Positions 4,224 through 30,644 of a stretch of DNA of 37,043 nt are shown here, piece by piece; position 1 is the first letter of the stretch, and each line of letters opens with the position of its first letter. Location: NCBI GenBank assembly GCA_937870585.1, contig CALMZE010000133.1, forward strand, positions 1 to 37,043. The letters are read 5' to 3'. The notes beneath the pieces are model-generated. The model was not told the DNA's origin. It saw only the letters and a program-made list of their open reading frames with translations, and ran no database searches. This DNA comes from an uncultured Sphingomonadales bacterium. GTDB taxonomy: Bacteria; Pseudomonadota; Alphaproteobacteria; Sphingomonadales; Sphingomonadaceae. The position numbers and the translations under genes were made by a program.

Positions 4224-4320
4224 CATTTGAGGCGGAGGCCCACAAAGAACCTGCCTTTCAGGCATCCTCTCCTATCAAACTTTCAAGAGCCATCCGGTCC
4301 GCCGGGTGGCTCATTTTTTT
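4215..4320 (+). ncRNA. Candidate small regulatory RNA with its own terminator
   Basis: The plus strand here has a small-RNA layout and no credible reading frame. There is a short hairpin (TGCCT 4252-4256, AGGCA 4260-4264), then an unpaired pyrimidine-rich stretch containing TCCTCTCCT at 4265-4273, which could pair with Shine-Dalgarno sequences, and then a terminator hairpin (4288-4311) with seven T's. No plus-strand gene lies upstream that would need this terminator; the neighbours on both sides are on the minus strand. A possible -35 TTGCAA is at 4182-4187, with only a poor -10 near 4203. The 5' end is a guess. This is inference from layout, not recognition of a known RNA family. Confidence 0.35.
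4288..4320 (+). terminator. Strong Rho-independent terminator, plus strand
   Basis: AGCCATCCGG (4288-4297) pairs with CCGGGTGGCT (4302-4311), one G-T pair, four-base loop, followed by T's at 4314-4320. On the minus strand no T run follows, so it acts on plus-strand transcripts. It lies 16 bases beyond the tail end of the minus-strand oxygenase gene. Confidence 0.75.
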
Positions 4321-4335
4321 GGTGTCCGGGCGGGC

Positions 4336-19081: not shown

Positions 19082-19162
19082 GATCCTCGCGTGCTGCGCT
19101 ATGCGCCTTGGCGTGAGGTCATTCTTTTCATACCAAGGCGCAAAGACAGGCAGGCGAGGATC
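19082..19162. repeat. Nested inverted repeat overlapping the end of the DUF1330 gene
   Basis: Outer arms GATCCTCGC (19082-19090) and GCGAGGATC (19154-19162) and inner arms TGCGCCTTGG (19102-19111) and CCAAGGCGCA (19133-19142) are all perfect. The two internal gaps are each 11 bases and the loop is 21. The inner arm region (CCAAGGCGCAAAGAC) resembles a GGCGCAAAG dispersed element seen in many proteobacteria. The right outer arm includes the DUF1330 stop codon. Confidence 0.6.
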
Positions 19163-26645: not shown

Positions 26646-29033
26646 TCAACCCCGCAGCACCGCCCCCAGCTTGGCAGCAGCGGCCACCACCTTGTCGGCA
26701 ATCGCTTTCAGATCAGCCTCGCCATAGCTCTTCTCGACCGGCTGGAGCGTAACTTCCACGGCCAAGCTGACCTGCCCCTCAGGCACGCCCTGCCCGGCAA
26801 AGCGGTCAAACAGTCGAGCCGCGACGATGTTCGCCTTGTCCGCGCCCTTGATGGTGCGGACGAGATCGCCCGCCGGCAGGCTTTCGGGGACCAGAAACGC
26901 AAAGTCGCGCGTTACGGCTTGCAGCGGCGGTGGCGTGAAGGCCGGGCGCATAAAGCCCGTTCCGCCGCGCTTGGCGGGCAGCGCGTCGAGATAAATCTCT
27001 GCCGCCATCACCGGACCATCTAGATCAAAGGCCTTTGCAGTATTGGGATGCAGCGCCCCGAAGGCCGCCAGAACCGTCTTGGGGCCAAGGCGCAACGTAG
27101 CAGACTGGCCGGGGTGGAAATGGTCACCAGCCTCTCCCATGACTTGGAGGTTTTCGACCGGAGCCCCAGCCGCCGCCAACAGCGCGAGCACTTCGCCCTT
27201 GGCATCATAGGCATCAAACTTGGCCGCCTTGCCGGTGGCCCAGCCGCGCGACGCCTTGTCGCCCGCGAGCACGAGGCCAACGGTCGGATGCTCCTTGTCC
27301 GCCAGATAGCGCCGACCCAGTTCGAACAGACGGATGCTGTCCGCCCCTCGCGCCTGATTGCGGGCAGCGGCTGAAAGCAGACCGGGCAAGAGCGAAGGCC
27401 GCATGACCTTCATGTCTTCGCTGATCGGATTGGCGAGCGTCCAGTGTCCGCCACCAAAGGCCGCAGCTTCTTTTTCGGGCAGGAAGGACCAGTTGATCGC
27501 TTCGTTCAAGCCCCGCGCGGCCGCCGCACGACGCACCTTGCGCTCGATGGTCTGTGCTGGCGTGGCGGTCGGCTTGGCGACGCCATCGGCGCGCGGCAAT
27601 GGCGTTGAGGGGACGTTGTCCAACCCCACCATGCGCACGACTTCTTCCACTAGGTCAGGCGCGCCATCAATATCGCGTCGCCAGGTCGGGATGGTGACTG
27701 TCCAGTCCGGAGCTACACCAAAGCCCAGCGACTCCAGCACTGTCTTCTGCCGCGCGGCAGGCACGTCAATGCCTCCCAGACGCGCGCATATGCCGGTGTC
27801 GTAAGACAGGGTGCGCGGTGCCACAGGCGGCGTTCCCGCGCGCGTGATGGCGCTGGCGGTGCCGCCGCAATGCTCCAGCACCAGCCATGTGGCGATGGCG
27901 AGGCCATCCTCCAGAAACGCCGGATCAACGCCGCGTTCAAAGCGCTGGCGGGCATCGCTGGTCAGCATAAGCTTCTGCCCGGCGCGCGCGATATGTTCGG
28001 GATCGAAATAGGCACATTCGATCAGCACGTTGGTCGTGCCTTCCGAACAGCCCGAATGCTCGCCGCCCATGATGCCGGCAATGTCATGCACCTGCGCATC
28101 ATCGGCGATGACAGTCATGCTGGCGTCTAACGTGTAGGTTTTGCCATTGAGCGCCACAACCTGCTCGCCATCCCGCGCCTTGCGGGCAACGAGCGCGCCG
28201 GACAATTGGGCACGATCATAGACGTGCAAAGGCCGCCCCAGATCGAGCGAGACGAAGTTGGTGATGTCCACCAGCGCTGAAATCGGCTTCTGGCCAACCG
28301 CCTTGAGCTTCTCGACCATCCACGCCGGAGCCGCGCCATTGGTGACGCCGGAGACGGCCTGCGCGTAGAAAGCCGGACAGCCTGCGGGGTCATCGGTGCG
28401 CACATCGGGCGCGGGATCGCTGCCGGGGATCGGCGCGAGCGTGCCCATGCGATAGACCTCGCCCAGCGGCTTCAATGTGCCCAAGCCGGCCGCTGCCAGA
28501 TCGCGGGCAATGCCGCGCACGCCCATGCAATCCTGCCGGTTGGGCGTGATGGCAACCTCGATCACCGGATCGTTGAGCGCGGCATAATCGCTGAACGCGG
28601 TGCCGACTGGCGCATCGGCGGGCAGTTCGATGATCCCATCATGATCATCGCCCAGTTCCAGCTCGCGGCTGGAGCACATCATGCCGTTCGATTCGACGCC
28701 CCTGATGGCGGCCTTCTTCAGCACCATGCCATTGGCGGGAACGACCGCACCTTCGACGCCAAACACGCCGACCAGTCCGGCGCGCGCATTGGGTGCACCG
28801 CACACGACTTGCAGAGCGCCCTGCCCGGCATCGACAGTCAGCACCTGCAACTTGTCCGCCTGCGGATGACGTTCGGCGGTCAGCACTTTCGCCACAGTGA
28901 AGCCCTTCAGGCGTTCGGCGGGGTTCTCAATGCCTTCGACTTCGAGCCCGATGCGGTTGCACGCGTCGGCCACGTCATGAACGGTCGCTTCGGTCTCCAG
29001 ATGCTCCTTGAGCCAGCTCAGAGAGAATTTCAT
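26646..29033 (-). CDS. pheT: Phenylalanyl-tRNA synthetase beta subunit
   Basis: A 795-residue bacterial-type beta chain. In order: N-terminal segment [13 protein letters not shown], an EMAP/tRNA-binding OB-fold (about 40-150, with [11 protein letters not shown]), B3/B4 editing domain, B5 domain, the catalytic-core-like fold and the C-terminal ferredoxin-like anticodon-binding domain ([16 protein letters not shown] to the end). It forms the alpha2-beta2 enzyme with PheS. The ATG overlaps the pheS stop as ATGA (29030-29033). Full length, with no visible disruption. Confidence 0.97.
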
Positions 29034-30193
29034 GCGCCTACTCCTCCGCTCAGCGTGGGCACATCGAGTGCCGCAAAGCCATAATGTTTCAGCCAGCGCA
29101 GATCGCCATCGAAGAAGGCGCGCAGATCATCCATGCCATATTTGAGCATGGCGAGCCGGTCGACGCCGGTGCCGAAGGCGAAGCCCTGATATTCGTCCGG
29201 ATCAAGCCCGCAATTTTCGATCACCCGCCGGTGGACCATGCCGCTGCCCAGCACTTCCATCCAGTGATCGGAGCCGCCGACGACGCGCTTGCCGTTCTGG
29301 ATCGTGTACCCGATGTCGATTTCCGCGCTCGGTTCTGTGAAGGGGAAATAGCTGGGGCGCATCCGGATGGTCACATCGTCGCGCTCGAAAAAGGCGCGCA
29401 GGAAGGTTTCCAGCGTCCATTTGAGATGGCCAAGGTGAATGCCCTTGTCGATCACCAGACCCTCGATCTGGTGGAACATCGGCGTGTGTGTGGCGTCTGA
29501 ATCACTGCGGTAGACGCGGCCCGGCGCGATGATGCGGATCGGGGGCTTTTGCGATGTCATCGTGCGGATCTGCACCGGAGAGGTGTGCGTGCGCAGCAGC
29601 ATCTTTTGAGCCCTCTCCCCTTCAGGGGAGAGGGTTGGGAGAGGGGAAGTCTCGCTCGACTCATCCCCTCTCCCCGGCCCTCTCCCCTGAAGGGGAGAGG
29701 GAGAAGTTTCGGGGAAATAGAAAGTGTCATGCATCGCCCGCGCCGGGTGCGTTTCGGGGATGTTGAGCGCGGAGAAATTGGTCCAATCGTCCTCAATCTC
29801 AGGACCTTCGGCAACGGCAAAGCCCATATCCGCGAAGATTTCGGCCAGTTCGTCCATGACTTGCGAAACGGGGTGCACCGAACCGCGCGGCGCTTCGGAC
29901 GAGGGCAGCGTCATGTCGAGCCGCTCGGTGGCGAGGCGGGCATTGAGCACAGCGGATTCAATCGCCGCCTTCTTGTCGGCAATGGCGGTGGTCACGGCCT
30001 CGCGCAGGCCATTGATGACCGGCCCCTGCACCTGCCGCTCTTCGGGAGACATCTGCCCCAGCGTCTTCAAGAGCGCAGAGACACTGCCTTGCTTGCCGAG
30101 CGCCGCCACACGCACAGTCTCCAGCGCATCTAGGCTGTCAGCCCCTGCAATGGCGGCAAGAGTTTCGGATTGGAGTGTGGCGATGTCTGTCAT
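29030..30193 (-). CDS. pheS: Phenylalanyl-tRNA synthetase alpha subunit with an in-frame repeat insertion
   Basis: A 387-residue PheS, the catalytic subunit that activates phenylalanine. N-terminal coiled-coil (to about 90), then catalytic class II motifs: [52 protein letters not shown] and the C-terminal [13 protein letters not shown]. Between HDTFYF (155-160) and [10 protein letters not shown] (197-206) about 35 residues rich in Ser, Pro, Gly, Arg and Glu are inserted, encoded by a palindromic repeat (29606-29710). Without it the length would be a normal ~350. The frame is kept, so the gene is presumably functional. ATG at 30193 gives [10 protein letters not shown]; the open frame continues to 30334 without family likeness. 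Confidence 0.95.
29606..29710. repeat. Palindromic repeat element inserted inside pheS
   Basis: Two 24-base units, 29611-29634 and 29678-29701, are exact reverse complements of each other and each is itself nearly palindromic (CCCTCTCCCC ... GGGGAGAGGG). Between them GGGAGAGGGGA (29637-29647) pairs with TCCCCTCTCCC (29664-29674) around a 16-base centre. The whole ~91-base core is therefore one large inverted repeat. This type of CCCTCTCCCC element is a known dispersed intergenic repeat style in proteobacteria; here it lies inside a coding sequence and keeps the frame. Confidence 0.85.
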
Positions 30194-30278: not shown

Positions 30279-30644
30279 TTACGCTGCCTGAGGCAGAGCC
30301 GCCTTCGCCTGCGCGACGATGACGCTAAACGCACCAGCTTCGTTCATGGCCAGATCGGCCAGAATCTTGCGGTCCAGCTCAACACCGGCCAGCTTGCAGC
30401 CGTGCATGAACTGACCATAGGTCAGACCTTCGGCGCGAACGGCGGCGTTGATACGCTGGATCCACAGCGCGCGGAAGCTGCGCTTCTTCGCCTTGCGGTC
30501 GCGGTATGCGTACTGGCCAGCCTTTTCGACGGCCTGAATCGCGATGCGAATCGTGTTCTTGCGACGGCCATAATAGCCCTTCGCCTTGTCCAGAATGCGC
30601 TTGTGACGCGCGTGGGTGGTAACACCCCGTTTGATGCGAGACAT
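30279..30644 (-). CDS. rplT: Ribosomal protein L20
   Basis: A 121-residue L20 with the expected start [16 protein letters not shown] and the [29 protein letters not shown] and C-terminal ILADLA segments. It binds 23S rRNA early in large-subunit assembly and in many bacteria represses its own operon. It lies 13 bases after rpmI on the same strand and ahead of pheS. Confidence 0.98.

Follow-up and report, generated by a model that had tools for sequence, protein, structure and literature searches.

An in-frame palindromic element in the pheS gene of a sphingomonad and a DUF559 nuclease gene as its likely partner

The gene for the alpha subunit of phenylalanine--tRNA ligase, pheS, is essential, and in an uncultured member of the Sphingomonadales it carries a long palindromic repeat within its reading frame. 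This raises the question of what the insert is, what moves it and how a host protein accommodates it. In the window, the whole stretch of 37,043 nucleotides that was analysed, pheS lies at 29033..30193 on the minus strand and encodes 387 amino acids (TIGR00468, E 2e-104, over the cut-off). Its stop overlaps the start of pheT, the beta-subunit gene (26646..29033, minus strand), while rplT, encoding ribosomal protein L20, is located upstream (30279..30644, minus strand); both were assigned by open reading frame (ORF) and profile match. The preferred reading, held at a probability of roughly 0.7, is that the insert is a dispersed MITE-like element of sphingomonads, that a DUF559 protein would cut its hairpin ends and move the short copies, and that copies within genes would survive in loops and linkers.

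The element occupies about 29608..29703 (~96 bp, minus strand), as delimited by inverted-repeat analysis, folding and the copies found by genome-wide BLAST. It contains two palindromic units of 24 nt, both defined by palindrome analysis and a pattern search of the genome: unit 1, CCCTCTCCCCTTCAGGGGAGAGGG (29611..29634), has 10-bp arms around a TTCA centre, and unit 2, CCCTCTCCCCTGAAGGGGAGAGGG (29678..29701), is its reverse complement. The first-pass annotation had described two exactly inverted 24-base units, which is correct, but its span of 29606-29710 is a few bases too generous. An inner inverted pair, GGGAGAGGGG...CCCCTCTCCC (29637..29674), was identified by inverted-repeat analysis and folding, and allows the entire element to fold as one hairpin. 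This hairpin reaches -86.7 kcal/mol over 121 nt of the gene strand (z = -8.8), and none of 200 shuffles was equally stable. Across the 3.8 Mb of the genome, the pattern of the palindrome has 17 occurrences and its reversed control none, and the two results together exclude a chance origin. The pheS reading frame stays open through the whole element.

The element is absent from the 29 other PheS loci in an alignment of 30 that included the one in the window. A search of the genus gave a match in 11 of 13 genomes, the window's own counted; all 10 other PheS genes lack the element, and no such palindrome is present at their loci. The stretch from FYF to MLL spans 37 codons in this PheS, 10 residues in nine congeners and 9 in the tenth, and the DNA of six congeners at this loop is 30 nt long. 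It had been proposed that the insertion would be called into doubt if all related proteins carried a non-repeat segment of similar length, and this is not the case, with ten same-genus loops that are 27-28 residues shorter and elementless. The earlier figure of about 35 added residues describes a real insertion but corresponds to nearly the full loop, the net gain being 27. It follows from the same counts that some host sequence was replaced by the insert. Across the family the length of the loop is naturally variable, up to ~36 residues (locus L048). When aligned with two solved structures of E. coli-type PheS (PDB 4p71 and 3pco), the protein shows a gap at the element position; the structure predicted for this PheS alone has a mean pLDDT of 41, too low to be of use.

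The assembly of 3.8 Mb is distributed over 233 contigs and is 96% complete. A BLAST search of this genome with the element returned 91 matches, which were grouped by hand into 33 sites after omission of seven weak matches (E 0.7 to 4.65). With 33 sites, eight of them in frame in genes, the genome-wide count of copies proposed at first pass establishes that the pheS insert is not a one-off. In a full copy, a 24-nt palindrome is followed by an inverted copy of one of its halves; the same arrangement is mirrored at the other end, and the centre between them varies from roughly 15 to 60 nt. The copies are short, dispersed and without a transposase gene of their own, they have terminal inverted repeats, and larger units with the same ends carry a gene (DUF559), all of which are traits of MITEs. 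As in REPs and REPINs, palindromic units of 20-40 nt are present, often as inverted pairs. By eye, most listed full copies have no GTAG/CGTC end tag, their ends being (A)AAGCCC and GGGAG, and no target-site duplication was noticed by eye at the serA-hisZ junction or at the in-gene junctions inspected.

Copies are found both between genes and in frame within housekeeping genes. According to a simple coding-composition model, 10 of the 33 sites lie inside the chosen open frame, 3 overlap a frame end and 20 are outside; gene-breaking copies would be missed by this count, since only open frames were scored as in-gene. One of the ten is the DUF559 gene of a larger unit, one is a chance match in RarA, and eight are true hosts: PheS, GlyS, ValS, IleS, PolA (DNA polymerase I), LigA, TrmD and PdhB. 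RarA was dropped as a ninth host as its LSPEGARE stretch aligns gap-free with E. coli RarA, and the site at C176:39997 was not counted because its only overlap is with the N-terminal part of a short-chain dehydrogenase ORF, probably an over-extension. Alignment to solved structures covered five hosts, PheS, TrmD, PolA, LigA and ValS, and in each there are extra residues at the element; GlyS was compared with its relatives instead. The in-frame insertion into protein genes, a trait of the Rickettsia palindromic elements (RPEs), thus extends to eight hosts with structure gaps for five, and the original description of a dispersed palindromic repeat in an essential gene, parallel to the Rickettsia elements, is borne out. 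LigA carries a half element of about 17 residues and the IleS insert belongs to a related subfamily, while the other seven hosts encode SPL(Q/E)G and/or SP(E/Q)GER. Three of the six reading frames of the element consensus are open. Most in-gene copies appear to read in one orientation.

An exact search for the half-element pattern yielded at least 118 stretches holding at least 128 half-elements. The listed stretches are nearly all titled Sphingomonadales, with the exception of two records of 'Bacillus sp. 2B10', one Gammaproteobacteria, one Proteobacteria and three Alphaproteobacteria MAGs. The 'Bacillus sp. 2B10' records (L164, L182) hold a sphingomonad-type element, which may reflect an error in title or assembly, or contamination. 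DUF559 is lacking at 95 listed half-elements, 75 of which have a partner arm nearby and so form short copies. Among the listed copies, 23 fall within open frames that score positively for coding; 20 were scanned against NCBIfam, with L254, L269 and L270 left out as not gene-like, and all 20 matched a family. This gives 20 short copies out of 75 in frame in recognised genes, among the matches listed. The hosts of these 20 are the linker of E2 acyltransferases (6), GlyS (6), ValS (3), IleS (2), GcvPB (1), MurD (1) and RimM (1). Culturable species with an in-frame copy include Novosphingobium colocasiae, in GlyS (L200), and Sphingopyxis panaciterrae, in an E2 protein (L232). Five of the listed GlyS copies and two of the listed ValS copies are at the same site as in the window's own genome. 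For the six E2 proteins, the matches to models of 2-oxo acid dehydrogenase E2 stay under the curated cut-offs; the two IleS pieces (L258, L271) are truncated and likewise fall short of theirs. The start of RimM (L169) is uncertain because the element sits just before the first profile-matched residue. It has been noted that the E2 linker carries the in-frame element repeatedly (L172, L204, L218, L232, L242, L245). Aminoacyl-tRNA synthetases account for a striking 4 of the 8 hosts in the genome itself and 11 of the 20 in the listed relatives, but a p-value based on an assumed base rate of 1% carries no weight, the relatives also repeating the same sites.

GlyS is the best-sampled of the in-gene sites. 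A GlyS match is present in all 59 family genomes; 30 loci were taken, and 28 were measured, one being misaligned and one not located. The segment after ARWL is at least 75 nt long in 20 of the 28, the window's own genome included, and 18 nt in four. Fifteen of the 20 long segments fold with z <= -3, as opposed to 2 of 196 control stretches. The encoded peptides are of dissimilar types (SPLQGRG; RPEPVEG...RQAQ; TPAQAGVQ...DSRLRGND; TGRGT...PADGPPPPVGE), and even a species of the same genus (L308) has an insert type differing from that of the window's genome. Across the genera of the family, several dissimilar palindromic repeat types have been collected by the loop after ARWLVEEG (L307-L335). 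The presence of dissimilar types in one loop, both across genera and in a congener, suggests a permissive loop that has been entered repeatedly. To judge from these sequences, the in-gene copies look like tolerated insertions as opposed to a conserved new part of the protein or a selected segment. The earlier proposal that such repeats may serve to create new segments of protein is not supported in that form, given the dissimilar palindromes that different genera and a congener have at GlyS.

The larger units with the same ends point to a partner gene. In the window's own genome, DUF559 (PF04480) has nine matches over the cut-off, eight of them near full length. At C219, two half-elements flank a DUF559 ORF, and the layout at C106 is the same; both share the arms of the pheS element, while the DUF559 units at C39 and C46 have related arm variants. 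Inverted arms at or above the threshold score of 14 are found at seven of the eight near-full-length genes. Among the listed half-elements, 33 of 128 have a DUF559 gene no more than 900 nt away towards the inside, and none of 128 has one towards the outside. The DUF559 protein matches PDB 3hrl at the sequence level (E 3.7e-22). It is likely, on the evidence of such sequence associations, that DUF559, a Vsr-like nuclease of the PD-(D/E)XK type, is the partner and the presumed mover of the element.

The same arrangement recurs at a wider scale. DUF559 is present in 53 of 59 genomes of the family, 32 of 115 of the class and 47 of 200 of the phylum, and the loci studied were the best-scoring matches of the genomes, a subset of all. 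For the family, eight own loci and the best match from each of 29 other genomes were used; inverted palindromes surround 32 of these 37, in comparison with 0 of 204 shifted controls from the same loci and 1 of 60 control stretches taken at PheS loci. In the class, inverted arms are found at 22 of 29 loci against 1 of 163 controls, L290 being counted here as a miss although it scored 14, equal to the threshold, when re-placed. A phylum-wide draw of further loci gave arms at 14 of 25 against 3 of 153 controls; three of these 153 control stretches come from L290. By origin, arms were found at 7 of the 11 loci that fall outside the class, at 6 of the 13 that belong to its other families, and at the single locus from the family (1/1). 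Below the threshold are 5 of 37 family, 7 of 29 class and 11 of 25 phylum-draw loci, the last including 7 of the 13 other-family class loci. L360 has no arms at its DUF559 gene; two of the three controls with high scores owe them to strong inverted repeats lying 1.0-1.2 kb from that gene. At L305, in the same class, the DUF559 gene has long AT-rich inverted arms, which indicates that the arrangement is not only an effect of high GC content.

Arm type and protein type also vary together. The distance between arms correlates with the distance between DUF559 proteins over all loci (r 0.41, n=54, p 0.0002), within the family (r 0.48, n=32, p 0.0002) and within the window's own genome (r 0.59, n=7, p 0.036). 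With wrongly framed DUF559 proteins the correlation is weaker, at r 0.11 (p 0.10) for all loci and r 0.30 (p 0.005) for the family. In the genome of the window, a DUF559 unit lies between trpB and trpA (C219:16236-16655), and the right arm of the pheS element aligns to this unit with a single gap of 2 bases and 47 of 48 bases identical. Among the matches listed, a motif of trpB or trpA is present at 18 of the 24 DUF559 loci with an exact match, so that many of them probably represent one old resident site and not independent insertions. Loci of this kind with a DUF559 unit include L173, L179, L181, L182, L183, L217 and L255. At C106, between serA and hisZ, the window's genome has a DUF559 unit that is absent in all seven readable congeners, four of which have a 17-bp spacer and three other short palindromes. 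The palindromes in question, downstream of serA, are at L338, L339 and L341, one with CGTCATTGCGAGC-type ends.

The proposed mechanism is as follows. The DUF559 protein would recognise and cut the extruded hairpin ends of the element, and the short copies, which have no gene, may move by borrowing this protein. An insertion within a gene would survive if the frame is kept, the palindrome reading is open and the site falls in a loop or linker. These conditions would explain why most in-gene copies found encode PSPL(Q/E)G...LSP(E/Q)GER. In PheS, the outcome would be a net addition of 27 residues to a loop that already varied in length.

The rival explanations differ in which part of this scheme they dispute. 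If DUF559 were a passenger that homes into, or is kept beside, palindromes spread by something else, then a shared resident site would be expected, as the trpB/trpA motifs at 18 of the 24 exact-match loci have it; the repair-like role described for DUF559 proteins in part of a Caulobacter study (PMC12907096) would also fit. This explanation is unlikely, given that DUF559 lies inside the arms at 33 of 128 half-elements and outside at none of 128 among the matches listed, that arm type co-varies with protein type, and that the association recurs with different arms both within the class and beyond it. A different mover altogether is postulated if the element is an ordinary REP or REPIN spread by a RAYT, a Y1 tyrosine transposase, which has been lost or is missing from the draft assembly. 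The inverted pairs of palindromic units do resemble REPINs, the draft is 96% complete in 233 contigs, and a Y1_Tnp match exists in 12 of 59 family genomes. Nonetheless, this appears distinctly improbable: the genome itself has no Y1_Tnp (PF01797) at E<=1, those 12 genomes compare with 53 of 59 for DUF559, most listed full copies lack the GTAG/CGTC end tags by eye, and what has been found between the arms is DUF559.

Two further explanations concern the insert and not its mover. A fold of -86.7 kcal/mol over 121 nt inside an essential gene could suggest that the protein lacks the segment which the DNA carries, through removal from the mRNA or a ribosome that skips the very stable hairpin. There is very little to be said for this, as the eight hosts read straight through and expression has been reported for some RPE-1-bearing proteins of Rickettsia (PMC3733652); the openness of the hosts and of 3 of 6 consensus frames is weak evidence, since only open frames were counted. 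The least credible account is an assembly artefact or a decaying pseudogene copy of pheS, which the fragmented state of the draft would allow. Against it stand the intact 387-aa frame with TIGR00468 over its cut-off, the order pheS-pheT-rplT, and the same kind of insert on several other contigs and in named isolates. No second pheS occurs among the own-genome matches, the other matches being element-like stretches.

Among known systems, the REPIN-RAYT pairing likewise combines dispersed inverted palindrome pairs with a partner gene. The partner there is a Y1 tyrosine transposase, whereas the candidate partner of the sphingomonad element is a DUF559 Vsr-like nuclease. RPEs, as described in parts of two accounts, are repeats of ~100-150 bp, some of them in frame in housekeeping genes including that of the Phe-tRNA synthetase beta subunit, and their shared sites hold different element groups (PMC3767692, PMC10969869). 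The sphingomonad element is similar in size, in its in-frame housekeeping hosts and in shared sites with different types. The RPEs belong to another order of Alphaproteobacteria, whereas the element described here is GC-rich and has a candidate partner gene, a distinction drawn from description and not from alignment.

Intragenic GTAG/CGTC REPs are reported, in the part of the source consulted, as palindromes in ORFs of several genera, the hosts including DNA polymerase I and repair genes; their dimers encode 20-30 amino acids, for which loops or linkers have been suggested, and the mover of CGTC REPs is given as not known (PMC3733652). The sphingomonad element is likewise a short palindrome inside ORFs, including that of DNA polymerase I, but by eye most of its listed full copies lack the GTAG/CGTC tag, and DUF559 is not mentioned for those REPs in the same part of the source (PMC3733652). 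In-frame palindromes in genes are already known from Rickettsia and from REPs elsewhere, and taken by itself the pheS case adds a member to that theme.

For DUF559 itself, the portion consulted of a Caulobacter paper describes VsrA, a DUF559 protein, as a Vsr-like endonuclease of the PD-(D/E)XK type, likely active in mismatch repair and tied functionally to a cytosine methyltransferase (PMC12907096). The DUF559 proteins of the window's genome are of the same Pfam family and homologous to PDB 3hrl, while the repair and methyltransferase link is described for VsrA; this tie indicates that DUF559 can have another job. The string 'palindrom' does not occur in that text (PMC12907096). No link between DUF559 and such palindromes emerged from searches of an open-access library for DUF559 or Vsr, in which none of the 12 papers containing the word DUF559 has a title about palindromic repeats and one Vsr search covered 10 of 405 papers.

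A broader proposal is put forward tentatively, at somewhat less than even odds. A considerable proportion of the palindromic GC-rich repeats in Alphaproteobacteria, and in some others of the phylum, may be non-autonomous copies of a distinct minimal mobile element, in which one DUF559 gene between folding palindromic ends is moved by the cutting of extruded hairpins. If true, this would provide an answer, beside the RAYTs, to what spreads REP-like repeats, and an origin for the in-frame inserts by which aminoacyl-tRNA synthetases and E2 linkers have been lengthened time and again. A DUF559 gene between the same ends is a concrete and testable mover candidate for this REP-like family. The in-gene copies offer natural pairs of essential enzymes with and without some 25-40 extra loop residues, whose cost and fate are measurable, and the Rickettsia picture is extended to free-living, culturable relatives.

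Two other features of the window may be recorded. A match to Rfam RF00519 (suhB/mmgR small RNA) lies at 4246-4327 on the plus strand, with 44.4 bits against a cut-off of 41. At 19082-19162, two imperfectly inverted 35-nt arms with 77% complementarity enclose a loop of 11 nt, the longest such pair listed within 150 nt in the window.
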